Assembly: GCF_001438845.1 (NCBI RefSeq)
Contig: NZ_JQCL01000057.1
Location: 244,911-308,910, forward strand
From: Lactiplantibacillus xiangfangensis
GTDB taxonomy: Bacteria > Bacillota > Bacilli > Lactobacillales > Lactobacillaceae
DNA: 64,000 nt
Direction: 5' to 3'
Shown: piece after piece, positions 24,854-47,335 of the stretch
How the letters are laid out: each line of letters begins with the position of its first letter
Position numbering within the stretch: position 1 is the first letter of the stretch
Program-made: the position numbers and the translations under genes
The notes under the pieces: generated by a model
What the model saw: only the letters and a program-made list of their open reading frames with translations
What the model was told of the DNA's origin: nothing
Databases searched by the model: none

Positions 24854-25375
24854 TTGAAAGCGTTAATTAATTATCGTCATAAGCCAAAGCATAAATTACA
24901 TGCTATTAAGCTGTTTCGCGCCATGTATCAATTGACGAACGACGATGTGGACGCAATGTGGCAGAATCGAATGGCACTGATCGGTAATGACCGCGTATTA
25001 AATGACCAGCTTGGAATGCTTGTCCGACCGGCGTGGTTTGATCTACCTGAAATTCGGGATAATGATGACTGGGATGCCTTGGAAGATGATCATGAGTATA
25101 GTTCGATTGAGATGCGGACAACTGAACAAGAGCATCAGCTGTTGATTCAGACGGACTGTCCCGCCGAGACGTTGGTACAAACCCGTGCCTACGCCGTCTT
25201 AATTAGTCGAATGTTGGGGATCCTGGGTGGTTGTGTCAGTGAGGATAACGGGCGCTCCTGGCAGAAGTGTGCGGCGTTTGACCAGAAGTACCACCCAATT
25301 GTGAAGATGTCGCGGGATGAAATTATCCGCTTGACGGCACTTGAATTGCCGAACTTTTCACAGGAAGGGGACTGA
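24854..25375 (+). CDS. Paralogue-array protein 1 (unknown family)
   Basis: I do not recognise this 173-residue family. It is the first of four tandem relatives here, and two more are at 44767 and 45346. Shared features are a basic N-terminal strand (KALINYRHKP), a helix ending in the MWQL-like motif (here MYQLTNDD), a helical part with ARTRAYAVLIS-type sequence (QTRAYAVLISRML), and an acidic GCVSEDNGRSW motif. No signal peptide or membrane segment, so cytosolic. It starts with TTG behind GAGGGGG. The other genes follow at 4-14 bases, so this is one operon. Confidence 0.7.
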   Translation: MKALINYRHKPKHKLHAIKLFRAMYQLTNDDVDAMWQNRMALIGNDRVLNDQLGMLVRPAWFDLPEIRDNDDWDALEDDHEYSSIEMRTTEQEHQLLIQTDCPAETLVQTRAYAVLISRMLGILGGCVSEDNGRSWQKCAAFDQKYHPIVKMSRDEIIRLTALELPNFSQEGD

Positions 25376-25379
25376 CTAA

Positions 25380-25904
25380 ATGCAGGCTATTTTAAAATAT
25401 CAACCTCAACGGACGCACTTTTCAGCACAGGATTTTGTGCGCCAAATGTGGCAACTAACGCCAGATGAACCGATTGAATTCAGTCATGATGGTTGGGATG
25501 AGCAGTTGAATGTTGATCATAGTTGGCATGTGAATCCCTTTATTCCGGACTATGAGCGGCTTGTTCCTAACGGCGGTTTTGAAGCGTTGTCGGAGGTAGA
25601 TAGTCGGGTAGGCGTTGAACCGTTCAAACAGCCATACCGTCTTTGGTTGGCAACTCAATATCAAGCTGAAGCGCTTGTAACTGTGCGGGCCTACGTTGTC
25701 ATGGTCGACTTACTGATGCAACAACTTCCTGGGACCATTAGTTTGGATTTGGGAAAGACCTGGATAAGCCGGGAGGAGTTTCTAGCACCGTACGCGACTA
25801 TTTTGACATTGAATCGGGCGGAAATTCACCGTATCACCGCGTTACAAACGTTGAGTATAAGCCATGATGATGAAATTGACCCACCGTTTCCGTTGCGGTG
25901 GTGA
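25380..25904 (+). CDS. Paralogue-array protein 2 (unknown family)
   Basis: The 174-residue protein keeps the family start (MQAILKYQPQ), the RQMWQLTPDE motif at residues 22-31, the VTVRAYVVMVDLL helix and the loop PGTISLDLGKTW, in which the usual Ser-Glu-Asp-Glu has drifted to Ser-Leu-Asp-Leu. It is divergent from its neighbours, so the array is old rather than freshly duplicated. Function unknown. Confidence 0.7.
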   Translation: MQAILKYQPQRTHFSAQDFVRQMWQLTPDEPIEFSHDGWDEQLNVDHSWHVNPFIPDYERLVPNGGFEALSEVDSRVGVEPFKQPYRLWLATQYQAEALVTVRAYVVMVDLLMQQLPGTISLDLGKTWISREEFLAPYATILTLNRAEIHRITALQTLSISHDDEIDPPFPLRW

Positions 25905-25918
25905 GAAAAGGGGAAATT

Positions 25919-26455
25919 ATGAAAGCGTTGATTAGGATGGAGGATGAGTGGACACAAGACTTATCACTGTCGGCACTGGTTGCAAAAATGTGGCAACTAA
26001 CACCAACAGAGGTTGCACTTTCACTGAAAGAAGCCTCCGATGAACCCAAGTTAAATGAGCAGCAAACATTTGATGTGTGTCCAGCACTTTTTAAATTTAA
26101 AAATATTGCAAGTGATCCGTTATGGCAACAGTTTCCAGCAAAAAGAGAGTACTCGTCTGTCTATATGGCCCCATTACAACGTTATCGACGGTTGCAAATT
26201 ACCACGCCTTTTTGTGCCGAAACTGTGATGCAGGTGCGGGCTTACGCCGTCCTGATTTTGGAGGTAGCCCAGGCGACCAACGGTAAGATTAGTGAAGATG
26301 AGGGGCAATCGTGGCAAAGTATCTCTGAGTTTGAGTCGAAGTACCGATCATTATTGGATGCGCCAAGAGAAGTGTTACAGCGATTTAGCGCTTTAGAGGG
26401 AGATACCTTGTCATTAGATGAGACTGGATTTTCAAAATTCAGTTATTTATATTAA
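25919..26455 (+). CDS. Paralogue-array protein 3 (unknown family)
   Basis: The 178-residue protein has the family start MKALIRMEDE, AKMWQLTPTE near residue 23, MQVRAYAVLILE and the full acidic motif GKISEDEGQSW. AAGGGGAAATT sets the ATG at 25919, 14 bases after the previous stop; the frame extends upstream over that stop but without a better start. Cytosolic, acidic. Function unknown. Confidence 0.7.
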   Translation: MKALIRMEDEWTQDLSLSALVAKMWQLTPTEVALSLKEASDEPKLNEQQTFDVCPALFKFKNIASDPLWQQFPAKREYSSVYMAPLQRYRRLQITTPFCAETVMQVRAYAVLILEVAQATNGKISEDEGQSWQSISEFESKYRSLLDAPREVLQRFSALEGDTLSLDETGFSKFSYLY

Positions 26456-26467
26456 GGAGGTTTAAGA

Positions 26468-26992
26468 ATGCGAGCAATTATTAAATATAAGCACCGCTTT
26501 GAAACGAAGCTATCTTGGGAAAAATTAGCCGTCAAAATGTGGCAACTGGGAAAAGATGAAGCCGTCGCAGTGAACCACACCGGTGATGATCAAGAATTAA
26601 ATGAACAATTTACAATCGCGTTGGGATTACGATATTGGGAATATGACGAGAAATGGCATGAATTGCCAATTAAGCGAATTGGGGAAATGATTACTGTGCA
26701 GCCGTTTAAAAAGAAGAAGCGGGTGTTAATTTCAACGCCGTATCGTGATGAGTTAATGATTACCAGTCGCGCTTTTTACGTGCTGGTTGATGCGATTGCG
26801 ACTGCACTTGATGGGGACATTTCTGAAGAAGATTCGTACGATGAAATTGGAACGAAGTGGTGTAGTCCCGCGGATTTTGAAGAAAAGTATCAACGCGTGA
26901 TTGATTTGCCACGCCAAGATGTGAAGCAAGTGAGCTTTTTAGAAGCAATTGCATTACCTACAATTGATGAAAAACGGACTAAAGGTGTTTAG
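26468..26992 (+). CDS. Paralogue-array protein 4 (unknown family)
   Basis: The 174-residue protein keeps MRAIIKYKHR, VKMWQLGKDE and the helix TSRAFYVLVDAI. The acidic loop is expanded (GDISEEDSYDEIGTKW). A consensus AAGGAGG precedes the ATG. Together with the three genes upstream it forms a compact operon; a GNAT gene follows closely. Confidence 0.7.
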   Translation: MRAIIKYKHRFETKLSWEKLAVKMWQLGKDEAVAVNHTGDDQELNEQFTIALGLRYWEYDEKWHELPIKRIGEMITVQPFKKKKRVLISTPYRDELMITSRAFYVLVDAIATALDGDISEEDSYDEIGTKWCSPADFEEKYQRVIDLPRQDVKQVSFLEAIALPTIDEKRTKGV

Positions 26993-36014: not shown

Positions 36015-36713
36015 ATGAAAAGATTTTTAAAAGCTGGCTTAATGCTGGTGTTGGGGTTAGCACTAGTTGCGCCAAGCTTAACAACTACGGCAGATGCTTC
36101 TAGTAAAAAGGTGAAGGTCATCTCAACGACTAAGGTTGCGAAGAAGGCTTATCATGGTAAAAAGGGGTACATTTACAGCAGTGCTAAGCTAACCAAGAAA
36201 AAGTACAACATGAAGAAATACAAGTACACGACTTGGTACCGTTCAAAGAAGGCTAAGATCAAGAAGTCGGGGAAGAAGTCTTCTTTGACGTATATTAAAG
36301 CTGGCAAGAAAAAGGGCTGGATTTACAGCAAGTATTTGACTGCCGGGAAAGCACCAATTAACAAAAAGAAAATTTTGAAGAACGATTTAACGGCATACAA
36401 TCGCGCAATGATGTCAGCTAGTCCGGAATTACAAAGTAATCTTCAGGAGCTGTCTCCCAATGATTATTATGCAATGGGGCTGTTGCTGAATGATTACTAT
36501 TATGAAAAAGAGGACGCCGCACAGGATAAAGGCGCAATCTTGAAAACTTATAAGATTTTCAAGGGCCGCTTTAGCAAATCCCAGAATAAGAACTTGGCTG
36601 CAATGGCTAAGGATGTGAGTGGGTTCCATTTTACTAAGTCTAATCAAGAAATGAGCGCAAGAAAATTAGCAACATTTGGTACTGCACTTGGTAAGCTAAT
36701 TGAGGATCTTTAA
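36015..36713 (+). CDS. Secreted lysine-rich protein of unknown function
   Basis: The 232-residue protein has a clear signal peptide (Lys-rich start, hydrophobic LMLVLGLALVAPSL, cleavage about after ADA at residue 28). The mature first half (30-115) is very rich in Lys, Tyr and Ser, with repeated YHGKKGYIYSSAKLTKKKY- and GKKKGWIYSKYL-type units that look like surface-layer/SH3-like wall-binding modules. The C-terminal half is helical. It probably binds the cell wall by charge. GGGAGG precedes the ATG; -10 TATAAT at 35980-35985 has an extended TG. It is flanked by near-identical terminators. Confidence 0.8.
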   Translation: MKRFLKAGLMLVLGLALVAPSLTTTADASSKKVKVISTTKVAKKAYHGKKGYIYSSAKLTKKKYNMKKYKYTTWYRSKKAKIKKSGKKSSLTYIKAGKKKGWIYSKYLTAGKAPINKKKILKNDLTAYNRAMMSASPELQSNLQELSPNDYYAMGLLLNDYYYEKEDAAQDKGAILKTYKIFKGRFSKSQNKNLAAMAKDVSGFHFTKSNQEMSARKLATFGTALGKLIEDL

Positions 36714-36728
36714 ACATAACTGAATCAG

Positions 36729-36758
36729 AAAGACCGTTCGAATTTGGAGCGGTCTTTT
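36729..36758 (+). terminator. Terminator after the Lys-rich secreted protein gene
   Basis: AAAGACCG(TTC) pairs with (GAG)CGGTCTTT, 16 bases after the stop. Confidence 0.8.
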
Positions 36759-36818
36759 AGTTTGCAAAATGGGTTTGAGTACTAATTCGATTAAACTTTA
36801 ATGGCCCGTAGAATAAAA

Positions 36819-36862
36819 CAAACCGCTACATGACTGTCTGAGATAGTCGTGTAGCGGTTTTT
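36819..36862. terminator. Second copy of the metG-type terminator
   Basis: About 45 bases almost identical to 35873-35916, including the preceding GAATAA-ACA. It is in a position to end the leftward rgg gene as well, since the minus strand also shows a T-rich tail. Confidence 0.8.
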
Positions 36863-36900
36863 ATGGTGTTGACGTGGTGATTGCGGCGGCGTAACAATAG

Positions 36901-37740
36901 TTATTTCAATACTAATTCTGGAAAATCTTGTTTGGCAATGTCAGCAACTGGCTTAGCGCCCATTGCATCTAACACATCACAAGCTTGGCGAGCCTGATCA
37001 ATATTATGGTTTAAGACTGCGAGCCGAATAATACTGAGTAAGCGTAGGTCGTAGCGGTGATTTTGTTCAGTTAGGTGGATGCTCTCATTGAGATATTGCC
37101 TAATTTGGTCCTTACTAATCGTCCCCGGGTTCTTGATGCCCATATAGGCAAGATTGGCCACAATCGCATTTTTCAGTAGTGGGTATCTAGGTGAATATTG
37201 ATCGATACGTTCCAGGACCCGTTTCCCCTTTTGTTGGGCGGTAAGGGGATCAAAAATGTAGAGCATGTTATTAATTAGAAAAAAGTCCGTTTTACTCCAA
37301 TTTTTAGTAGCAGTGACTTCATTCCAAACGGGCATGACTAAGGTCGTTAGCTGTTCGCGCGAATAAGAATCAATGTGAATTAGTGCCACTAGTATGGGAA
37401 TGAGTTGGTGAATATATTTCAAATTGGAACTGGATAATAGCTGTTGCGCATCGACTAGTAATGTTTGTAATTCACTCATCTGGGAGGTGTCGGATAGGTG
37501 CTCAAATTGATAGACCAGCGCCTGATCCGCTGGTAATTGATGGTCATGGCGGTAATCTTCAAAATCACGGAGTGAAACGCCTAAACGTTCAATGATTTTT
37601 ATCATGGTATTGTACGGAAGAACGCGATCTTTGTGCTCAGCTTCAATAATGGCTTTACGAGTTGTGATGTCAGCTGCAAGTTGCGCCTGAGTTAAGCCTT
37701 GAGTTTTACGGAGCATTTCAATAACTTTACCTGTTTTCAT
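36901..37740 (-). CDS. Rgg/GadR/MutR family transcriptional regulator
   Basis: The 279-residue protein has an N-terminal XRE helix-turn-helix (residues 2-60, GKVIEMLRKTQGLTQAQLA) and a long helical-repeat C-terminal domain (80-279), the size and layout of Rgg proteins. These bind small imported peptides. AAAGG seven bases before the ATG at 37740 sets the start. It is divergent from the short hydrophobic peptide gene at 37847, the classic rgg-shp arrangement of streptococci. It most likely activates the peptide-adhesin operon; direct proof is lacking. Confidence 0.88.
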   Translation of the reverse strand: MKTGKVIEMLRKTQGLTQAQLAADITTRKAIIEAEHKDRVLPYNTMIKIIERLGVSLRDFEDYRHDHQLPADQALVYQFEHLSDTSQMSELQTLLVDAQQLLSSSNLKYIHQLIPILVALIHIDSYSREQLTTLVMPVWNEVTATKNWSKTDFFLINNMLYIFDPLTAQQKGKRVLERIDQYSPRYPLLKNAIVANLAYMGIKNPGTISKDQIRQYLNESIHLTEQNHRYDLRLLSIIRLAVLNHNIDQARQACDVLDAMGAKPVADIAKQDFPELVLK

Positions 37741-37766
37741 AAATTTACCTTTCACTAAAAATTAAT

Positions 37767-37816
37767 GTGCTAATTTGTCACATTTCAAATAATAACTTAT
37801 AGACAAGAAATATAAT
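37767..37816 (+). promoter_or_regulatory. Promoter/operator between rgg and the peptide gene
   Basis: A good -10 TATAAT (37811-37816) has no consensus -35 at the right distance (AATAAT-like bases at 37788). An inverted repeat AATGTG...CACATT (about 37763-37784) lies upstream of the missing -35. A poor -35 with a dyad just above it fits activation by a bound regulator such as Rgg. Confidence 0.5.
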
Positions 37817-37846
37817 AGGGATAAATGATTAAAGGGGAGGATAAAA

Positions 37847-37921
37847 ATGAAAAAATTAATGGTATTGGGGCTTACAGTTTGGAGTTGGATTATCGGAGGA
37901 TATGCGAGGTGGAGTATATGA
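37847..37921 (+). CDS. Short hydrophobic peptide (SHP-like pheromone precursor), 24 aa
   Basis: ATG at 37847 is preceded by AAAGGGGAGG with six bases spacing, the strongest ribosome site in the area. The peptide has a Lys-Lys start, a hydrophobic middle and a Trp/Ile/Gly-rich core VWSWIIGG followed by six residues that end Trp-Ser-Ile. Size, charge pattern and position (divergent from an rgg gene) match streptococcal SHP pheromones, which also carry Ile/Val-Gly-Gly. Its TGA overlaps the adhesin ATG (ATGA), so translation is coupled. No sequence identity to a known SHP is claimed. Confidence 0.7.
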   Translation: MKKLMVLGLTVWSWIIGGYARWSI

Positions 37922-40900
37922 ACGGGGAACCAAAAGTAAGAGTAGATACAAAATCATACTTAAAATTGAATATTAAAAGTCATATATGGCTGTTTGCGGG
38001 TGTGACACTTACAAGTATCAGTTTGGGGAATGCAAAATTATCAACGCTGAATGCTGATGCTGCGGTTTTGAATAGCCAAAATAGTGGAATAACCGAAATG
38101 GTGTCTAAAAAAAGTGGAGACAACAACACAAGTGCAGTTAATATCAAGGCTGGTGGAGCAAGTGTTAATGATGGAAACTCAAAATCGGATACCGGTATTG
38201 TAGATAGTGGTAATGAGAAGTCTACTGATGAAAAAGAAAACACTGAAACGGTGGTTTCCAGTAATGAGGAGACCAACTCAGTTAAAAATACCGATACAGC
38301 TTCTACGAAATCAAATGTGGAAAGAATGAATATAAAAACTGCTACGCAAGAAAACAGCAAGGTAGACAGTAATTCTTCTAACGATAGTATTTTAAGGGTA
38401 AATAATACAAAGGTAATATCACCAAAGACTGTTGTCAGACGAACCGCTATGGTACGCAGTGCAAATACGTCGTCCACGACAACTGTGACAGATTACAATA
38501 GCGCTACACCAATAGCTAGTAACGAAAAAGCAATTATCCCAAAGAAAAATGATAGATTAAATTCTAAATATAGTTTTATTCCAAAAGCAAATGCTAGTGG
38601 AAAAACAAAAGTTACGGCAATTGGAGATGCAATTACTAGTACGGGTACTAATCGAGTTGCGGTTAATATGAGAACATCAGCTAAGGGACAGACTGGTTTT
38701 AAATATACCAATGTTGGTTATGATGCGGTTGGTAGAAGTGTCGATATGGAATTGATCTATACAAATTGGGGACGTATGGATACTAATGATACGCCCTATA
38801 TTGAAGCATATACGAACAAAATTAAGACGGATTTAGCAGGTGTTGGTTGGGCAGATGTTGAGTACCGCTTTTTAAGCAGTGATACAGAAACGCCGGTAGC
38901 GGTTTCAGGACTATTAACGTTAACAGATATTGATGGTAGTCAATCTGTTAGTTTAAATAATAAACAATGGTCCCAAATTGATAACGTTTATATTCCAGAA
39001 AGTGATGATCCAACTACTGGGAAGGTTGATAACTGGTTACGTTATGTAGCAAACGATGACTATCTAACAATTGTTTCTCCCAGTGATAATAGTGGGAATA
39101 CTGATGAATATGCGATGCTAACATTTACATATACAAATCTAAGTGTAATTAATTTTCGTATTAGTAACGGTAGAACTGGTAAAAATAAAGTAGAGAATGT
39201 ATGGGGCGTTAATTATATTGCACAAAAGCCACTTGCTACAGCAGTAATTGCACCTAGCATAACGGTTTCGGATGATGATCAAATTAATGTAAGTAGTAAT
39301 ACTTTAAGAGATGGAGAAGCTAATTACAATTATACCTTTACCCAACAGATTCCAGATGAATGGGCAGCTTTTTATTATCATGATATTTTATTCTCTGGTA
39401 AATTGCCAAGTGATACCCGACTAACGAATTATCGAGTGACTGATGAATCTGGAAATGATATCACGCCAGAATTTATAGACCAGTCGGATGGTCAGAACTT
39501 TAAATTGGGAGTTGCAACAGACTATGTTGGTAGTAAAAATTTTTACGGGCATCGCTACACAGTTAATATATCTGTAATAGCGTCGCAAGCAGATGTGATT
39601 CAAAATTTTCAAATGAAGGTAAAGACGAATATTGATGGGGATGTTCAATCCTCAAATCAAGTAATAACCGTAATTCCAAAGAAGAAGTATGTGATAACAC
39701 ATTATTATTTAGCTGGTACAACGACTAAAATGGCAGAAGATCAAACGGATCGGGTGATTAAGAATGATAGCTATACGACAAATTCAGTAGATATAGCTGG
39801 ATACCAACAATTAGTCCCTAAAAATGTCACAGGGGTAATGGGGGACAATAATATTGTAGTGATATACCAATATTCTCCAGTGTCAATTTCGATTCCAATT
39901 GAGTATGTTGATCAAAATAAAACTCATATTTTATCTGATACGGTAATAAAGGGTAACTACGATAAGGCTTATGACGCTAGTAGTTTGGTAAAACGTATCA
40001 AAGGTTATAGCTTAGTGAAAGTAGATAATCAAAGTGGACAGTTTAAACTAGATAATTCTCCAGTTATCGTACATTATCAAGCACAAAAGGTTACTATACC
40101 GGTAATCTATGTTGATCAAAATGGAAAGTCTATTTTACCAGCTACTAGTATTACTGGTTACTATAATGACCCCTATGAAGCCAATCGTCTTTTGAAAGAT
40201 GTCCATGGATACTCTTTTAAAAATGCGATTAACTCGCAAGGTCAATACCAGCTGGTTAATCCAACAATTATTTTTCACTACCAGGCATTACCGGGTTCAG
40301 TGGATGTAAAATATTTGGATTTGCATACAAATAATAATTTATCTTCTTCGAAAATCTACAATGGTTTTTATGGTGACAACTATGATTTGACGATGACAAA
40401 TAAATCATTTACTGGGTATCATTTGATAAAAACTCTGGGTGGATTGACCGATTCTTTTGGAATTGGTAATAAAAGCGTTGTATACCAATTTATGCCAGAT
40501 AAGGTAACAATTCATGTGAAGAATGTTACAGATTTAAATGAAACTCTTGGTGAGTATGATGTTTCCGGATATTACAATGATACGTATGAAATTCAAACAC
40601 TAAAGGATTTGCCGACAGAATTGGCCTATAGCGCGACGATTGGAAGCTTACGGGGGAAATTCGGTTATACAGGGGAATCAGTTGTGAACGAGTATCGTTA
40701 TTCATACGGTAATACAACCAAAAATGGAAATGGTGCATTGACAACCATTTACAGAAATGGTGATGACGATATTGTTGGGTTAGAACAGATGCATGTGGAT
40801 GGTAACGAGACGTATGCTTTCTTTAATGCTGACGGTAAACTACAGGCAGGGGAGTATTCAATTGATAACAATAGTTTTGTAAATCTTTCTAACCCGATGT

Positions 40901-42039
40901 CAAAAGGTGACTACGTTATTCTAACTAGTATTGATGGAAGCTTTACGCGGGTTGATTACCTACAGGATGGTTCAATTTCTATTAGCAAGCAACTGAGTAG
41001 TTTAGATACGAAAGGCGATAGTGTGACCATGGCAGCTGATGGAAATTTGAGTTTCTCAACATTGCACTATAAAACTATTTCAGAAGATTTGTCTAAAAAT
41101 CGACAATCTGAACTACTCCAACAAGTTTGGCCTACTGGGGAGACTGTAACAGTCAACATCAGCAGTACACCGACTTTTGCATTTGCAGATGTGTTGCATC
41201 AACTACGATTTATTGCGGATATCAAGTGCTTTGATACAGCGCAAAGTATTAATGTTGACGGGAGCAAATATCAATTTTCAAAGACCAAAGCTGGTTTATT
41301 AGTAATTCAGCAGATTAATGCAAAGGGGAAGCCAACGTATAGTAGTTATTATACGAATCAGGGACAATTGGTTAAATCTGATTATCAAATTGAAAATAAA
41401 GTTGTTGGTGGAAATAAAAGCTATGTGCTGACGAAATATACTAAATATGATCAAACGGAAAGCCTGCTAGAAATTCAGGTTGGTGGGCAAAAGATTACAA
41501 TTACGTCATCATTTGGTTTGGCAACATTAAGAGTTGTTAGGTCGAATGGAACAGCGACCTTAAAACGTCGATTTAATAAAAAGGCTGCTTTTGAGTTGAC
41601 CAATGGTGTTAAAGCCGTATTGGTACTAAATGACAATAGTAAATACGTATTAACGTTGACTAAGATGAGTAATGACCAAGTTATTGGTCAAACAATAGTC
41701 ATTGATAAGACAGATGGTCGAATTGTTAGAGCAGACACTTTTATTGAAAGAACGAAGGTTCTGAAAAATGCAAACTATCAGAAAACTAATGGTGAAAATA
41801 TGACGAACAGTAAAAATGAGCACTCTGAGAGAAGATCAATTGTTTTCAGTAAGGATAGCCCGTCAAAAATGAACTCGCAAAGCCATATAAATAAGCCACG
41901 TTCAACTGCAGAATTTCGCAGGCATCATGGAAGATTGACATTACCTAAAACGAATGAACGAAGTGGGTTAACTTTAATTTCACTTGGATTATTATCTCTA
42001 ATAGTATTGCTAACAACAGTATTGAAGCGTAGACAATGA
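37918..42039 (+). CDS. Large MucBP-repeat cell-wall adhesin with LPxTxE anchor
   Basis: The 1373-residue protein has an N-terminal extended signal resembling KxYKxGKxW (TKSYLKLNIKSHIWLFAGVTL) and a Ser/Thr/Asn-rich segment (about 55-200). A lectin-like globular region follows (about 220-430), then about five MucBP-type repeats (592-930). The C-terminal part is unknown, and the protein ends with the sorting signal LPKTNE at 1342, a hydrophobic stretch and KRRQ. LPxTxE is the sortase form of L. plantarum. The ATG at 37918 follows AGGTGGAG and overlaps the peptide stop; the frame's earlier ATG at 37825 overlaps the peptide gene and lacks a site. A+T-rich unlike the neighbours. Confidence 0.85.
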   Translation: MNGEPKVRVDTKSYLKLNIKSHIWLFAGVTLTSISLGNAKLSTLNADAAVLNSQNSGITEMVSKKSGDNNTSAVNIKAGGASVNDGNSKSDTGIVDSGNEKSTDEKENTETVVSSNEETNSVKNTDTASTKSNVERMNIKTATQENSKVDSNSSNDSILRVNNTKVISPKTVVRRTAMVRSANTSSTTTVTDYNSATPIASNEKAIIPKKNDRLNSKYSFIPKANASGKTKVTAIGDAITSTGTNRVAVNMRTSAKGQTGFKYTNVGYDAVGRSVDMELIYTNWGRMDTNDTPYIEAYTNKIKTDLAGVGWADVEYRFLSSDTETPVAVSGLLTLTDIDGSQSVSLNNKQWSQIDNVYIPESDDPTTGKVDNWLRYVANDDYLTIVSPSDNSGNTDEYAMLTFTYTNLSVINFRISNGRTGKNKVENVWGVNYIAQKPLATAVIAPSITVSDDDQINVSSNTLRDGEANYNYTFTQQIPDEWAAFYYHDILFSGKLPSDTRLTNYRVTDESGNDITPEFIDQSDGQNFKLGVATDYVGSKNFYGHRYTVNISVIASQADVIQNFQMKVKTNIDGDVQSSNQVITVIPKKKYVITHYYLAGTTTKMAEDQTDRVIKNDSYTTNSVDIAGYQQLVPKNVTGVMGDNNIVVIYQYSPVSISIPIEYVDQNKTHILSDTVIKGNYDKAYDASSLVKRIKGYSLVKVDNQSGQFKLDNSPVIVHYQAQKVTIPVIYVDQNGKSILPATSITGYYNDPYEANRLLKDVHGYSFKNAINSQGQYQLVNPTIIFHYQALPGSVDVKYLDLHTNNNLSSSKIYNGFYGDNYDLTMTNKSFTGYHLIKTLGGLTDSFGIGNKSVVYQFMPDKVTIHVKNVTDLNETLGEYDVSGYYNDTYEIQTLKDLPTELAYSATIGSLRGKFGYTGESVVNEYRYSYGNTTKNGNGALTTIYRNGDDDIVGLEQMHVDGNETYAFFNADGKLQAGEYSIDNNSFVNLSNPMSKGDYVILTSIDGSFTRVDYLQDGSISISKQLSSLDTKGDSVTMAADGNLSFSTLHYKTISEDLSKNRQSELLQQVWPTGETVTVNISSTPTFAFADVLHQLRFIADIKCFDTAQSINVDGSKYQFSKTKAGLLVIQQINAKGKPTYSSYYTNQGQLVKSDYQIENKVVGGNKSYVLTKYTKYDQTESLLEIQVGGQKITITSSFGLATLRVVRSNGTATLKRRFNKKAAFELTNGVKAVLVLNDNSKYVLTLTKMSNDQVIGQTIVIDKTDGRIVRADTFIERTKVLKNANYQKTNGENMTNSKNEHSERRSIVFSKDSPSKMNSQSHINKPRSTAEFRRHHGRLTLPKTNERSGLTLISLGLLSLIVLLTTVLKRRQ

Positions 42040-42746
42040 TACGAAAAAAGTATTTGTGGATTTCAGGAATTGTGATGGCTTTGTGTATGGTGGTCATTAT
42101 AGTAGTTTTAAATAAAAATTCCGCAACTGTTAGAGTAGCGGTTATTGATGGCGATACAGGAATCCGGACAACAAATATTAGACATAAACGATACGTTAAA
42201 GGTAGTCATTCTTCTAAAGTACATGCAGATATTGTTATCAATCGTATTTTGAAAGGATTATATCATAATAAGGATATAATCATTTATGATTACGCCGTCA
42301 TGGACAGTGATGGTGGAATATCAGAAGCAAATTTTCAAAAAGCATTGATGCAAGCAAGAAAAGATCATGCACAAATCATTAATTTTTCTGGTGGATTTGA
42401 CGTTACCCAAAGTTCGACTCATACATTAATAAGAAAACTTGTGAATGAAAAAGTCGTAATTGTTGCAGCAGCGGGAAACAATTATGGTGCGAATGCGGAT
42501 TTTCCCGCAGATGTACCAGGAGTGGTATCAGTTGGCAGTACTGCAAACGGTACAAGGGCTGATTATTCCGCACGGGGTAAAGTAGATGTCTATTGTAATG
42601 GATCGAATATTCAATACAAAGGAAATAGGTACTACGGAACATCGTTTGCTGCGCCACAATACACTAATCGATTAGTACGGGAGCGATTAGGACATCCCAA
42701 GAAGGCAGTATGGTATTTAAATAAAAGGCTTTTGGCGAAAAAATGA
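42036..42746 (+). CDS. Membrane-anchored minimal S8 subtilisin-like protease
   Basis: The 236-residue protein has one N-terminal membrane segment (about 7-25) and then a compact subtilase domain with all catalytic residues visible: Asp38 in VAVIDGD, His58 in KGSHSSKVH, oxyanion Asn148 in VAAAGNN and Ser203 in YGTSFAAPQ. It has no propeptide and is shorter than common subtilases. With the catalytic part outside the membrane it could cut the adhesin, the next secreted protein or the peptide pheromone. Its ATG overlaps the adhesin TGA. Confidence 0.85.
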   Translation: MIRKKYLWISGIVMALCMVVIIVVLNKNSATVRVAVIDGDTGIRTTNIRHKRYVKGSHSSKVHADIVINRILKGLYHNKDIIIYDYAVMDSDGGISEANFQKALMQARKDHAQIINFSGGFDVTQSSTHTLIRKLVNEKVVIVAAAGNNYGANADFPADVPGVVSVGSTANGTRADYSARGKVDVYCNGSNIQYKGNRYYGTSFAAPQYTNRLVRERLGHPKKAVWYLNKRLLAKK

Positions 42747-42769
42747 ATTAATTTACAGGGGAAGTTATT

Positions 42770-44752
42770 ATGAAGCAAGTGATAAAAAAATTAGCACTGG
42801 TTATGGCGGGGATTTTGTTAACCAATTGTCTAACAGTATTCGTACCTGCAACTATTCGTGCGGAACAAGTAGGAACAACATCGGTTAATGCAAGCCATGT
42901 TCAATCAAAACGTTGGTCTGAAAGCAAAATTAGTAAGTATTTAGATCAGAAGTCAGATTTCTTTATTAAGCATGGTATGAGGTTACAAGGAGCAGAAATT
43001 GATGATAAAGGTACTACGTTGGTTTCAACGAAAAAGCTCAAAGATAATCGACATTTAGAATATATTACGATGATGCAAAATGGTTCGGCAAATCTTACAA
43101 CCCGGATTATTTTGTACAAAAATAAAAGTAAAGTAAGTTGGATTGATGTTCAAAGTCATATTGCTACGACTAAGAATGGTCTTCCAGAATTAGTTTCACA
43201 CGTCAGTGGCAAGACAAAAACGTATACGACACCATTAACGAATGGGCATACTTCATTTGTGCCTGCGATACCGGTCATAGCGGGTGTTGGTGCTAGTCTT
43301 GGCCCAATTGGGTGGGCCGTTGTAGGTGGTGTTGCAGCGGCTTCAGCCGGATTAGCTGCCTATCGATATTATGAGAATTCAAAGACTTATGTTGTTAGGA
43401 CGCCGGTTAGATCTAAAAAAAAGTCATATAGCTCGGCTAAAGTGCGCCATGCTGCAAAAAGTATGACCAAGGCATCGGCGCATTATCGTGCAGCACGGCA
43501 TTCAATTAGTAAGGTAAAATATCATACTGGCAGTCGCTTGTCTGTAAAATCAATCAGTAAAATTAACTTTGCCTTTAAGTCTATTAGAATGGGAAATGTT
43601 AATATTGGAAATTTAGGTATTCGTAAATTAAACATTCCCAATATCAACTTAAAAATCAAGCCCATCCATATTGGTAAAATCAATTTTGATATTAAACCTA
43701 TACATGTGTTGAGCCGAAAAGAAGCTCGTGCGCTCAATAAAATAACTTTGGAACTCAAAAAAACTGATGTATCCTTAAAAGAAAGTAAGACACGTCTTAG
43801 CAATTATAATTTTAAAGCGTTGGCTAATATGAAATTTGATATGCCAATTTTGAAAACTACCAAAGTGGCCGTAAATCCTTTTAAATTAGATGCTAAAGCG
43901 GGGAAGATAACGATTTCGGGGCGGATTTCTGCACCAGGAACGGTTAGTCTATATGTTACTGGACAGCCAATACTTACAAAGAAAACGAATCGGGATTTTT
44001 CGTTTACAATTGATAAACAAAACGTGTTAACTAGTGATAAAACATTGTTTGGGTCATCAATCAGTCTAACGGCATCAGGTACGGGTAGCAAAAAAGTTTC
44101 ATATTTTTCATCGCCAGATTTAAATATCAATCTTGATAAGCAAGGTAGCTTGATTGGTGATGCCAACTTTAAAAAAGCCATCATTGAGAGTATTCCGACG
44201 GTTACTCCTAAAATCAATAAATTTTCACCTGGGAAAAAGGTAAGGATAACTGGTACTGCCACACCAAAAGCGCGTATTTTTATAACTAAAGGAGGAAAAC
44301 AGTACCATGGTACAGCCAATGCAAAGGGAAAGTATTCAGTTCCAGTTGGCCGGGTAAAGAGTGGTGGCTATGTTGAAGTGGTGTCACAACTACCGAATAC
44401 GTTTAAGATTAATTATAGCCGGTCACGGACTGCTAAAAAACGTGCTAATAAGAAATCAGATAAGGCTAATATAAGACAAACAAGTCATTCGTTTGGGAAA
44501 AATTCTGAAGCAAAATATAATGGGAAGACTGGTCACTATAGAGTTGATGCAGAGCCGGATAGTAAAAAGATTCAAGTCCAATTTAATGAAGTAGAGTTTA
44601 AAAAATTGGATACCCGTATACCGTTACAAGAAGCAAAAAAACCAGAGGGAGATTTAATAATATATTTAAAGAGTGTTTTTGGGAAGAACATTAAGGATTA
44701 TAAAAAACTCGCTGGCTATGTAAAAAAAGCCTTGGATTATTTATACAAGTAG
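42770..44752 (+). CDS. Secreted basic protein with Ig-like domains, unknown C-terminus
   Basis: The 660-residue protein has a signal peptide (KKLALVMAGILL..., cleavage about after IRA at residue 31). A Gly/Ala-rich hydrophobic segment (about 163-200, GVGASLGPIGWAVVGGVAAA) is next, then a Lys-rich part and a run of short Asn-Ile repeats (264-314, such as NVNIGNLGI and KLNIPNINLKI). Two bacterial Ig-like domains (about 374-450 and 478-547) precede a unique basic C-terminus (598-660). Whether the C-terminus is a toxin is open. It follows the subtilase by 23 bases and precedes the acidic paralogue pair by 14. Confidence 0.75.
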   Translation: MKQVIKKLALVMAGILLTNCLTVFVPATIRAEQVGTTSVNASHVQSKRWSESKISKYLDQKSDFFIKHGMRLQGAEIDDKGTTLVSTKKLKDNRHLEYITMMQNGSANLTTRIILYKNKSKVSWIDVQSHIATTKNGLPELVSHVSGKTKTYTTPLTNGHTSFVPAIPVIAGVGASLGPIGWAVVGGVAAASAGLAAYRYYENSKTYVVRTPVRSKKKSYSSAKVRHAAKSMTKASAHYRAARHSISKVKYHTGSRLSVKSISKINFAFKSIRMGNVNIGNLGIRKLNIPNINLKIKPIHIGKINFDIKPIHVLSRKEARALNKITLELKKTDVSLKESKTRLSNYNFKALANMKFDMPILKTTKVAVNPFKLDAKAGKITISGRISAPGTVSLYVTGQPILTKKTNRDFSFTIDKQNVLTSDKTLFGSSISLTASGTGSKKVSYFSSPDLNINLDKQGSLIGDANFKKAIIESIPTVTPKINKFSPGKKVRITGTATPKARIFITKGGKQYHGTANAKGKYSVPVGRVKSGGYVEVVSQLPNTFKINYSRSRTAKKRANKKSDKANIRQTSHSFGKNSEAKYNGKTGHYRVDAEPDSKKIQVQFNEVEFKKLDTRIPLQEAKKPEGDLIIYLKSVFGKNIKDYKKLAGYVKKALDYLYK

Positions 44753-44766
44753 AAAAGAGGGAGCAA

Positions 44767-45312
44767 ATGCAGTCAACTATTAGATATCATCGTTCGCACC
44801 TACGTGTCTACGATGCGGAGTGGCAAGTATTAGCAAGAGAGATGTGGGATATTCCCACAACGGATACTCGGCCAGTAGAAATTAATATAAATGCGGTGGA
44901 TTACGATGATTTAAACCGATATCTGTACTTTAGAGTGGGTTTGCGATTGGAAGAATATCCGGATACTGAGGCTTTTTTTGACAAAGTTCCAGTTCAAAAT
45001 GCTGGTGAAAACATTGTGATACGTCCCTATCGCCATCAGCCTAAAGCAGAACTAGTAACGTATTTAAAGGAGCCACTTATGATTACGCAAAAGGCGTATT
45101 ACGTTTTTGCACACTATATTATTGCGCATTTGCCGGGACAAATTAGTGAAGATGAGGGCCAAACTTGGCTAACGGCCAAGCAGTATTATCAGCGACATGC
45201 CGATGTCATTGAGCTATCAGGTGCGGAAGTTCGCAAGATCAGTCTTGAGCAGGCTGGTAAAACATCGTTAGAAGAAGAACCGTGGGATACGCCGGGCGTT
45301 ATCTGGGCCTAA
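44767..45312 (+). CDS. Acidic paralogue of the 25-27 kb array, copy 5
   Basis: The 181-residue protein belongs to the same unknown family as 24854-26992: strand start MQSTIRYHRS, AREMWDIPTT near residue 24, the helix MITQKAYYVFAHYII and the acidic motif GQISEDEGQTW. It has no signal peptide, so it stays in the cell, and is rich in Asp and Glu. It sits 14 bases after a secreted basic protein, with AGAGGGAG before the ATG. An immunity-type partner is one reading of this position. Confidence 0.7.
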   Translation: MQSTIRYHRSHLRVYDAEWQVLAREMWDIPTTDTRPVEININAVDYDDLNRYLYFRVGLRLEEYPDTEAFFDKVPVQNAGENIVIRPYRHQPKAELVTYLKEPLMITQKAYYVFAHYIIAHLPGQISEDEGQTWLTAKQYYQRHADVIELSGAEVRKISLEQAGKTSLEEEPWDTPGVIWA

Positions 45313-45345
45313 CCACTTAATGAGTAGAATTATGGGGTGTTAATT

Positions 45346-45891
45346 ATGCAATCAACCATTAAGTATCACAAATCACACCTACACGTCTACGATGCGGAGT
45401 GGCAAGCGTTAGCAAGAGAGATGTGGGATATTCCCGCAACGGATACACGGCCAGTTGAAGTTAATATAGGTGCTAGAGATTATGATGACTTGAATCGAGA
45501 CCTATATTTCAAGATGGGTTTAAGGTTGGAGGAATACACTGATACTAAGGATTTCTTTGATAAAATTCCAGTTAGAAACGCTGCCGAAAACATTGTATTA
45601 CGTCCCTATCGTCATCAGCCTAAAGCAGAACTGGTGACGGTCTTGAAAGAACCGCTAATGATCACGCAAAAGGCGTATTACGTTTTTGCACACTATCTTA
45701 TTGCGCATCTACCAGGACAAATTAGCGAAGATGAGGGCCAAACTTGGCTAACGGCCAAGCAGTATTATCAGCGGCATGCCGATGTCATTGAACTATCAGG
45801 TGCGGAAGTTCGCAGAATTAGCCTCGAGCAAGCCGGCAAAACGTCAATGGCGGAGGAGCCGTGGGATACGCCGGGCGTTATCTGGGCCTAA
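45346..45891 (+). CDS. Acidic paralogue of the 25-27 kb array, copy 6
   Basis: The 181-residue protein is a close duplicate of the gene at 44767: long stretches are identical in DNA as well as protein (for example the 3' third), so the duplication is recent. Differences cluster between residues 46 and 100. GGGGTG eight bases before the ATG at 45346 sets the start. It ends the surface cassette; a terminator follows. Confidence 0.72.
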   Translation: MQSTIKYHKSHLHVYDAEWQALAREMWDIPATDTRPVEVNIGARDYDDLNRDLYFKMGLRLEEYTDTKDFFDKIPVRNAAENIVLRPYRHQPKAELVTVLKEPLMITQKAYYVFAHYLIAHLPGQISEDEGQTWLTAKQYYQRHADVIELSGAEVRRISLEQAGKTSMAEEPWDTPGVIWA

Positions 45892-45942
45892 TCAGCTAAC
45901 GCAGGAGTTACTTTAAGTGTTGCGCCACAAGCGTGATTAATA

Positions 45943-46000
45943 ATGAGCTGGTCGTAGTGGACATTTAAGTTGTCACTTGCGACCAGCTTTATTATCTTTT
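45943..46000 (+). terminator. Terminator after the surface cassette
   Basis: GAGCTGGTCG pairs with CGACCAGCTT, and AGTGGACA pairs with TGTCACT inside it. The stem ends in a T-rich run that also holds the -35 of the next promoter. Confidence 0.75.
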
Positions 46001-46029
46001 TTGACAAATTTGCTAATTTTCAGTAGAGT
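46001..46029 (+). promoter_or_regulatory. Promoter of the MFS leader
   Basis: TTGACA (46001-46006) and TAGAGT (46024-46029) are separated by 17 bases. Transcription would start about 20 bases before the leader-peptide ATG. Confidence 0.75.
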
Positions 46030-46056
46030 AGTGGGATTGAAATGAGGTGACTACGC

Positions 46057-46122
46057 ATGAAATACGAACAAATTTTAGTGTGTGTAGCCGTAGATGGAAA
46101 AGGACGTTTTTCCGCAAATTAA
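46057..46122 (+). CDS. 21-codon leader peptide of the MFS gene
   Basis: GAGGTG (46044-46049) lies seven bases before ATG 46057. The peptide begins MKYEQILVCVAVDG and ends Phe-Ser-Ala-Asn. It closes 22 bases before the MFS ATG. The last third of the frame overlaps two competing hairpins, which fits a ribosome-stalling leader of the erm/cat kind. I know of no matching leader sequence. Confidence 0.6.
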   Translation: MKYEQILVCVAVDGKGRFSAN

Positions 46123-46157
46123 TTTAAATAGGAGTCTAAATTAAATGAAAAACGTCC
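46096..46157 (+). promoter_or_regulatory. Mutually exclusive hairpins at the MFS start (translational attenuator)
   Basis: GGACGTTTTT (46102-46111) is a perfect complement of AAAAACGTCC (46148-46157), the first codons of the MFS gene. Pairing traps the start codon, with the ribosome site GGAG (46131-46134) in the loop. The alternative GGAAAA (46096-46101) with TTTTCC (46108-46113) uses the same T-run, so only one can form at a time. Ribosomes on the leader peptide cover both left arms. Confidence 0.65.
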
Positions 46158-47335
46158 AAAAACAAGTTCCATCACTACTATTATTAATCACGTTGGTGGG
46201 GTTCCCACAAATCAGTGAATCAATCTTTACCCCCATCCTACCGGCACTGAGCAGTGCCTTACACGTCAGCGCCAGTCATAGTCAGCTGACTATGAGCATT
46301 TACTTCGTCGCGTTTGCCATCGGGGTCCTTTTCTGGGGCCAGTATGCGGACTACCGCGGTCGGCGTCCTGCCATGCTCGGTGGCCTTGTCTTTTATTTAC
46401 TGGGCAACTTAGGGTTATTTTTAAGCCCCGGCTTTAGCTGGCTATTAGGTAGCCGCTTAGTGCAAGCGTTTGGAGCGAGTGCCGGGTCGGTCGTCACGCA
46501 AACCATCATGCGCGAAAGCTTCAGTGGCGTGCGCGGGGCGAAAGTCTTTGCGAAGGTCAGTGCTGCTATGGCGTTGTCGCCGGCACTCGGGCCATTGATC
46601 GGTGGCAGCGTGCAGACCATGTGGGGCTACCACAACGTCTTTTCTGTTTTGATCATGATGGCGGTGGCCTGCCTCTTATATGCAGGGGTCCGTTTGCCCG
46701 AAACGCGCCCGACCACGGTAAAGGTGGCTAATTGGTCGCAACAAAAATTGGTCGTTAAACGGCTGTTGAGTGACCCGGTCGTGTGGACCTACGGGATTTT
46801 AATTAGTGGGATCAATGGAATTTTGTTTAGTTATTACGCCGAAGCGCCGTTTATCTTTGAAGCGCACTTTGGTTTTTCGGCCGTCACGTATGGCAGCCTC
46901 GGTTTATTACTGGCAGCCGCCAGCTTAGGTGGTGCGCTATTAGTGAACTGGCTAGTGAATTACTGGTCACCGATGCACATTGCGTTGGGTGGGCTGATGC
47001 TCAGTAGTGTCGCAGCTGTTGGACTAGTCGTTGCGGCTAGTTTGAATCAAGTTCTCGGGATGTTGGTCGGAATTTTCGTCGTTTTCCTAGGACTAAACGT
47101 GACGTTACCCAACGCGCTCAACCGGGCCTTAATTGGTTACGAGTCCGTGATGGGAAGTGCCAGTGGCTGGTTTAGTCTCGGCTACTACTTGGCGGTCAGT
47201 GCCCTGACATACTTGATGAGCCGGTTGCATCATGGCAGTATTACGACTTTGCCCGCTTATATTCTAGGGATTTGCCTAGTGATGAGTATTGTTTACGGGT
47301 GGCTATGTCAGCGAACAGCTGCGTCACGGAGTTAA
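46145..47335 (+). CDS. Bcr/CflA-type MFS multidrug efflux transporter
   Basis: The 396-residue protein has twelve hydrophobic segments, the motif A loop GQYADYRGRRPAMLGG and the antiporter motif C-like ALGPLIGGSV, which place it in the DHA1 Bcr/CflA drug:proton antiporter group. Chloramphenicol and related drugs are substrates of relatives; the substrate here is not known. Expression appears to be controlled by the leader peptide and hairpins upstream. GGAG 10 bases before the ATG is the ribosome site. A strong terminator follows. Confidence 0.88.
   Translation: MKNVQKQVPSLLLLITLVGFPQISESIFTPILPALSSALHVSASHSQLTMSIYFVAFAIGVLFWGQYADYRGRRPAMLGGLVFYLLGNLGLFLSPGFSWLLGSRLVQAFGASAGSVVTQTIMRESFSGVRGAKVFAKVSAAMALSPALGPLIGGSVQTMWGYHNVFSVLIMMAVACLLYAGVRLPETRPTTVKVANWSQQKLVVKRLLSDPVVWTYGILISGINGILFSYYAEAPFIFEAHFGFSAVTYGSLGLLLAAASLGGALLVNWLVNYWSPMHIALGGLMLSSVAAVGLVVAASLNQVLGMLVGIFVVFLGLNVTLPNALNRALIGYESVMGSASGWFSLGYYLAVSALTYLMSRLHHGSITTLPAYILGICLVMSIVYGWLCQRTAASRS

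Follow-up and report, generated by a model that had tools for sequence, protein, structure and literature searches.

Organization of the locus

The window, by which we mean the whole 64,000-nucleotide stretch of DNA that was analysed, comes from the 2.99-Mb genome (G000) of a Lactiplantibacillus. An Rgg-like regulator gene on the minus strand is divergent from a series of plus-strand genes that begins with an adhesin, and a small open reading frame lies between them. The features are as follows.

36901..37740, minus strand: Rgg-like RRNPP regulator, 279 aa, with an N-terminal HTH_3 domain and an all-helical (TPR-like) C-terminal domain
37766..37786: operator candidate, a TGTG-N9-CACA dyad (37766-37782) and then TTTC; CACATTTC is kept in L. 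fabifermentans, function putative
37811..37816, plus strand: -10 hexamer TATAAT; no good -35 at a suitable distance
37834..37840, plus strand: ribosome site GGGGAGG of the small frame, ending 6 nt before its ATG
37847..37921, plus strand: pheromone precursor candidate of 24 codons, MKKLMVLGLTVWSWIIGGYARWSI, core WSWIIGG
37918..42039, plus strand: sortase-type adhesin, 1373 aa, with three MucBP stretches and an LPKTNE anchor; putative target
42036..42746, plus strand: membrane-anchored mini-subtilase, 236 aa (Peptidase_S8, Pfam E 1.4e-15); putative operon member
42770..44752, plus strand: secreted protein, 660 aa, Big_6-like (Pfam Big_6 E 7.9e-5, below cut-off); putative operon member
44767..45312, plus strand: 181-aa protein, first of a duplicated pair, no Pfam family; operon membership uncertain
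45337..45891, plus strand: 184-aa paralog of the 181-aa protein, 87% identical to it

The regulator frame runs from an ATG at 37740 to a stop at 36901, and an in-frame GTG at 37755 is an alternative start. Its ATG lies 106 nt from that of the small frame. The original prediction had described the small frame as a 24-codon frame 106 bases away, with a strong ribosome site and a stop that overlaps the adhesin start as ATGA, and had placed upstream of it a good -10 without a -35 and, farther upstream, a dyad; these elements were confirmed in the sequence. The promoter consensus scan did not list TATAAT at 37811-37816, and its sole nearby plus-strand match was TAGACA-18-AATGAT (37800-37829, 9/12). 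The product of the small frame starts with Lys-Lys, has a hydrophobic body and contains no Asp or Glu in its 24 residues. The adhesin ATG (37918) is directly preceded by GAGGTGGAG. The adhesin has its own ribosome site, and its frame stays open upstream to another ATG at 37825.

The adhesin matches MucBP (E 4e-21, three stretches) and LPXTG_anchor (16 bits versus a cut-off of 15.9). It thus has the predicted MucBP domains and LPxT-type anchor of sortase-anchored adhesins, the anchor lying at the cut-off, and we read its signal as a degenerate KxYKxGKxW-like one. The start of the mini-subtilase overlaps the adhesin stop, and this enzyme may be a protease dedicated to the adhesin or to the peptide. 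In 36700-46200 no Rfam match attained the gathering score of its family. With PADLOC the 181-aa protein had one chance-level match (E 0.036) and three other proteins had none.

Two groups of paralogs that encode proteins of 173-185 aa, none assigned to a Pfam family, also lie in the window: four genes in 24854-26992 and two in 44767-45891, the second group behind the 660-aa secreted protein. Several neighbouring copies of these paralogs also occur in genomes G399 and G005, and the groups remind us of immunity-type gene arrays.

Assignment of the regulator to the RRNPP/Rgg superfamily

The regulator had been predicted to be Rgg-like, and its family profile and predicted fold agree with this. 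When the family profile was compared with PDB chains, matches with E values of 1e-7 to 1e-10 were obtained for Rgg2 (1.5e-10, profile positions 2-211), PrgX (6e-10, 2-272), ComR, PlcR and Rgg3, several of which span most of the C-terminal domain. The best PDB match was Lmo0325 (4ryk; E 4.9e-16, residues 3-223), a Listeria regulator with a solved structure. In Foldseek, the three matches of the predicted fold at E ≤ 0.001 were NrpR and two Rgg2 entries, with PrgX within the next two. VIA-align of the predicted fold also matched the superfamily; the model has a pLDDT of 76, which is low in the DNA-binding part. Searched on its own, the window regulator matched neither curated model of the Rgg C-terminal domain (TIGR01716 and PF21259), even with E values up to 1 allowed. 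Both models are matched by the L. fabifermentans ortholog, though below cut-off (1.7e-5 and 0.002), and TIGR01716 is matched by three of nine A2 members. By family profile and predicted fold, the regulator is of the RRNPP/Rgg superfamily receptor type, with putative peptide binding.

In a plasmid search with the regulator, the best 20 of 22 records were 19-27% identical and partly annotated as Rgg, GadR or MutR. In addition, a broken copy of the window regulator, with a 48% identical piece, was found in genome G016 (L006/L037) close to transposase-like genes.

A recurring class of small frames beside homologous regulators

The exact peptide occurs in its own genome only among the 301 family genomes searched (0 of 300 others), and the plasmid search gave a single chance match (E 9). 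The survey concerned the pattern W-phi-phi-G, which the window core WIIGG carries, in the divergent upstream regions of 110 regulators (that of the window and 109 homologs). A qualifying sORF had 8-45 codons and a ribosome-site match of at least 5 bases. One homolog listing supplied 28 loci (L096-L123; L094 and L095 repeat L070 and L079) and 60 more, which were taken in rough E-value order, omitting most of the weaker places, one place where the contig ends and several that were second copies or close relatives.

A divergent W-phi-phi-G sORF was present at 25 of the 110 loci, a set that includes the window and close species and is thus not one of independent loci, and it was absent at the other 85. 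The 25 loci come from 25 genomes, 13 genera and 7 families. The same pattern was found in 0/110 on the codirectional strand, a weak control because qualifying sORFs of any kind occur at only 19/110 loci there versus 77/110 on the divergent strand. In 100 dinucleotide shuffles of the 110 regions, the mean was 0.15 and the maximum 1. With the sORF start restricted to 80-125 nt from the regulator, where the window has 106, the counts were 18 divergent versus 0 codirectional and 0.02 shuffled. For hydrophobic sORFs with a Trp near the end, they were 44/110 divergent versus 2 codirectional and a shuffle mean of 4.07. Beside other ORFs of at least 150 aa in the window and nine further stretches, a W-phi-phi-G sORF was found at 1 of 125 mechanically called, unchecked ORFs, which is the window regulator itself.

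The 25 peptides, such as MSLLLFSNIIWIIGG, MRKLFRIVLFASIFWIVGG, MIELFLIWLAGG, MRYKIKLNWGHILWLVGG and MKKILKKLIAFLPVIWFMGGGG, fall into 11 clusters when the region around the core is grouped at 60% identity. A Gly follows the motif in 18/25 and Ile or Leu precedes the Trp in 19/25, neither of which the pattern demands. Across six related W-phi-phi-G frames pN/pS was 0.29; in W-containing frames without W-phi-phi-G it was 0.27 (six loci) and 0.11 (four loci). W-x-W sORFs occur at 6 of the 109 other loci, the one at L073, 409 nt away, perhaps by chance.

These counts bear on the explanation of the small frame as a chance ORF beside an orphan Rgg-like protein. The frame is known from one genome, and when the 160 nt beside the regulator were dinucleotide-shuffled 20,000 times, a looser frame, hydrophobic with any Trp near its end, arose 406 times. 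In the same shuffles a W-phi-phi-G sORF with a ribosome site arose only 8 times, although the motif used for these counts was chosen after related loci had been seen, and both the position and the core are common to homologous loci. We consider a chance origin very improbable. The recurrence argues strongly that the divergent sORF belongs to a class found at the same place beside homologous regulators, and at the level of this class its conservation holds.

Closer to the window, the pattern is sparse. Within the window's own family, the W-phi-phi-G sORF was found in the window only (1 of 22 rows; the broken G016 copy, whose halves make up two of the 24 places, is not counted). In the regulator tree, which omits the 7 of 110 rows shorter than 250 aa, the neighbours of the window besides L. 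fabifermentans have other W-containing frames (MPSIFNIFTWFFKF-like in four species; MQGYIPSLMTTILIWVHAG) or none. At loci L077, L078, L080 and L081, a conserved 14-codon frame (MPSIFNIFTWFFKF, MPSIFNVFTWFFKF, MSPFFNIFTWFFKF) lies 173 nt from the homologous regulator in four species with a pN/pS of 0.11, and these frames are a further set of pheromone candidates.

The L. fabifermentans ortholog

A scan of the genome contigs with a two-row alignment returned one locus, that of L. fabifermentans, whose regulator is a 59% ortholog of the window regulator on a 3130-base contig. Upstream of it, CACATTTC is present at the same position, and a -10-like hexamer, TATTAT, aligns with the window TATAAT. 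Past this hexamer the sequence diverges and a different gene follows; no adhesin is found on the 3130-base contig. The peptide is not kept, and only a weak GTG frame, MAVIRLVFAG, is present. The original prediction had set beforehand, as the result that would speak against it, the lack of the peptide frame beside orthologous regulators, and this is what the sole 59% ortholog has. Conservation at the level of the ortholog therefore fails.

The adhesin, its homologs and the genes next to the small frames

The stop/start overlap in the window, together with the lack of conservation of the sequence in the nearest ortholog, could suggest that the small frame is a leader peptide that couples or times adhesin translation through ATGA and carries no signal in its sequence, and that the regulator controls the promoter unaided or with a peptide from another locus. 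At ten other W-phi-phi-G loci with long flanks, however, the core recurs where the next gene starts 30-265 nt past the sORF stop, which indicates that the overlap is local to the window and that the peptide is generally no coupling leader. (For the window, the next-gene scan took an upstream TTG of the adhesin frame; we take ATG 37918 as the adhesin start.) The low pN/pS among related sORFs, the ordinary fold of the leader RNA (z -0.47) and the separate ribosome site of the adhesin also count against such a leader, and we regard it as unlikely. At seven of these ten loci, two near-identical pairs included, the product of the next gene appears to carry an export signal, as judged by eye from the N-termini.

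Matches to the adhesin at E 1e-10 were found in 9 of 388 family genomes. Its residues 183-640 are 51% identical in a second Lactiplantibacillus genome, G009, and 48-52% identical in four species of another genus, where the copy in G331 is interrupted. The G009 homolog has a divergent Rgg before it (TIGR01716 E 1.8e-24, Rgg_C 3.8e-24), and between the two lies a 9-codon frame with a ribosome site, MWAWIILAF (L036:8771-8800, plus strand), a leaderless-type pheromone candidate on an adhesin. The genes behind the G009 adhesin showed no homology by BLASTP to those behind the window adhesin. In four of the five other close homologs, the four other-genus copies, no Rgg-like ORF was seen beside the adhesin when the upstream ORF lists were inspected by eye. 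In genome G131, a gene with an Rgg-like N-terminus (L213:2662-3552) immediately precedes a distant (28%) adhesin homolog and has the same orientation.

The G009 arrangement raises the question of whether signalling in the window is likewise leaderless (LCP/RopB-like) or purely intracellular, so that the active form would be short and internal or untrimmed and export needless. In the parts of PMC10518010 available, LCPs are present in Lactobacillaceae and are mostly 8-10 aa long. The window frame, on the other hand, encodes 24 residues with a Lys-Lys start and a hydrophobic body, like longer pheromone precursors, and the window and G009 regulators are only 20% identical over 221 columns. This explanation appears still less likely than a translational leader.

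A proposed peptide circuit

The explanation that fits these data best, and one that we consider probable, is an autoinducing Rgg/RRNPP-type peptide circuit that controls the adhesin cassette. In this circuit, a 24-aa precursor with a basic start, a hydrophobic body and the WSWIIGG core would be made from the divergent promoter, exported, trimmed and re-imported by an oligopeptide permease. The peptide would then bind to the regulator in its C-terminal domain, and the regulator would activate, or stop repressing, the shared intergenic promoter. Expression of the peptide and of the adhesin that overlaps it would increase, and probably also that of the subtilase and secreted-protein genes that follow. 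The candidate fragments of the small-frame product are VWSWIIGG, TVWSWIIGG, WSWIIGGYARWSI and the C-terminal 14 residues; the mature form perhaps lies within VWSWIIGG, with YARWSI removed. A role of the subtilase in trimming either the pheromone or the adhesin is speculation.

The genome has five OppA-like proteins, one EcsB homolog, which we take to be related to PptB, and one RseP/Eep-type protease over cut-off. Because OppA and RseP homologs are common and also occur in control genomes, this set only makes the route of export, processing and import possible. Of the original claim that a peptide circuit switches on a surface cassette, the receptor type and the recurring sORF class have gained support; we infer that cells make, secrete and sense the peptide and that it induces the adhesin. 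Judged from its sequence features, the circuit has a good chance of being functional.

A broader reading is tentative, and we would not put it as high as an even chance: W-phi-phi-G(G) would be a broad, unnamed class of Rgg pheromones in at least seven Lactobacillales families, often encoded before secreted or surface proteins, and the window subtilase may trim the pheromone. On the same reading, homologous Lactiplantibacillus adhesins would be controlled by two unrelated pairs of peptide and receptor, an SHP/WxW-like pair in the window and a leaderless-type pair in G009, and adhesion would hence be a repeatedly recruited output of peptide signalling.

Lactiplantibacillus is used in food fermentation and as probiotics. 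The proposed circuit suggests that cells might decide jointly, via a chemical message, when to make the adhesin; if it is true, a food and probiotic genus would have a mucin-binding-type surface protein under the on/off control of a peptide, and Rgg/WxW signalling would reach beyond streptococci. The short W-phi-phi-GG core would then also help to locate pheromone genes that annotation has missed next to orphan regulators, in many lactic acid bacteria.

Comparison with known systems

Among the matches listed in open-licence full text, without figures and supplements, no paper was found on a W-phi-phi-GG pheromone class, and the titles and abstract starts of the open-licence matches listed showed none on an Rgg-peptide-controlled adhesin in lactobacilli. 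Searches of open-licence text for WIIGG, WLVGG, WIVGG and WLAGG gave no pheromone paper by title or abstract start; the supplementary tables of PMC10518010 and PMC10075063 may hold such peptides. The class is not present in the available parts of PMC10075063, PMC9765709 and PMC12445099.

As described in parts of PMC10518010, RopB/LCP systems share with the window an RRNPP receptor, a divergent tiny hydrophobic peptide and their occurrence in Lactobacillaceae. The window precursor, at 24 aa, is outside the LCP size, and the 9-aa G009 frame fits better. Upstream of Rgg-like genes at L042 and L046, we also observed tiny MW-starting frames with ribosome sites (ATG, MWMLIFLFNNLLIRASAL; GTG, MWYLLILEF), which are candidates for leaderless-type peptides in other Lactobacillaceae genera.

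SHP groups I and II are defined by a conserved Asp (I) or Glu (II) (PMC13361665, in part). With these the window shares the divergent arrangement, a short hydrophobic precursor, a core ending in II/IV-GG, and the superfamily and fold of the regulator; the window peptide differs in having no Asp or Glu, in being Trp-rich and in the residues that follow GG (same source). Thus, of the predicted SHP-type peptide beside an Rgg, the divergent sORF stands as a class that recurs beside homologs, whereas its assignment shifts away from groups I and II toward Rgg/WxW.

According to parts of PMC7018657, RtgS of Streptococcus pneumoniae is divergently encoded, lacks an acidic residue and carries Trp-X-Trp, and Rgg/WxW was proposed as a distinct group; another WxW peptide acts with Rgg1518, as supported by footprinting, deletion and synthetic peptide in parts of PMC9426450. 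Like RtgR/RtgS and Rgg1518/Rio84 in these sources, the window has a precursor with a positive start and Trp-X-Trp (WSW) beside an Rgg-type regulator, with the putative target genes adjoining the pair; like RtgS (PMC7018657, in part), its peptide is divergent and has no SHP acidic residue. Pheromones of the RtgS type have their Trp-X-Trp close to the C-terminus; the window WSW occupies residues 12-14 of 24, ten residues from the end. With WxW, no acidic residue and divergent orientation, the peptide fits the Rgg/WxW group by motif, an assignment made without a joint tree of its regulator with RtgR and Rgg1518. The locus is best read as an SHP-like circuit whose nearest counterpart by motif is the Rgg/WxW group of streptococci. 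Compared with the two streptococcal pairs, as far as these parts describe them, the window belongs to another host genus and its putative targets are an adhesin and a subtilase, not transporters or GG peptides; its peptide also differs from RtgS and Rio84 in the IIGG after Trp, in a six-residue tail past GG and in a stop that overlaps the target start. The type of circuit is one known from streptococci, but the window version and its adhesin target look new.
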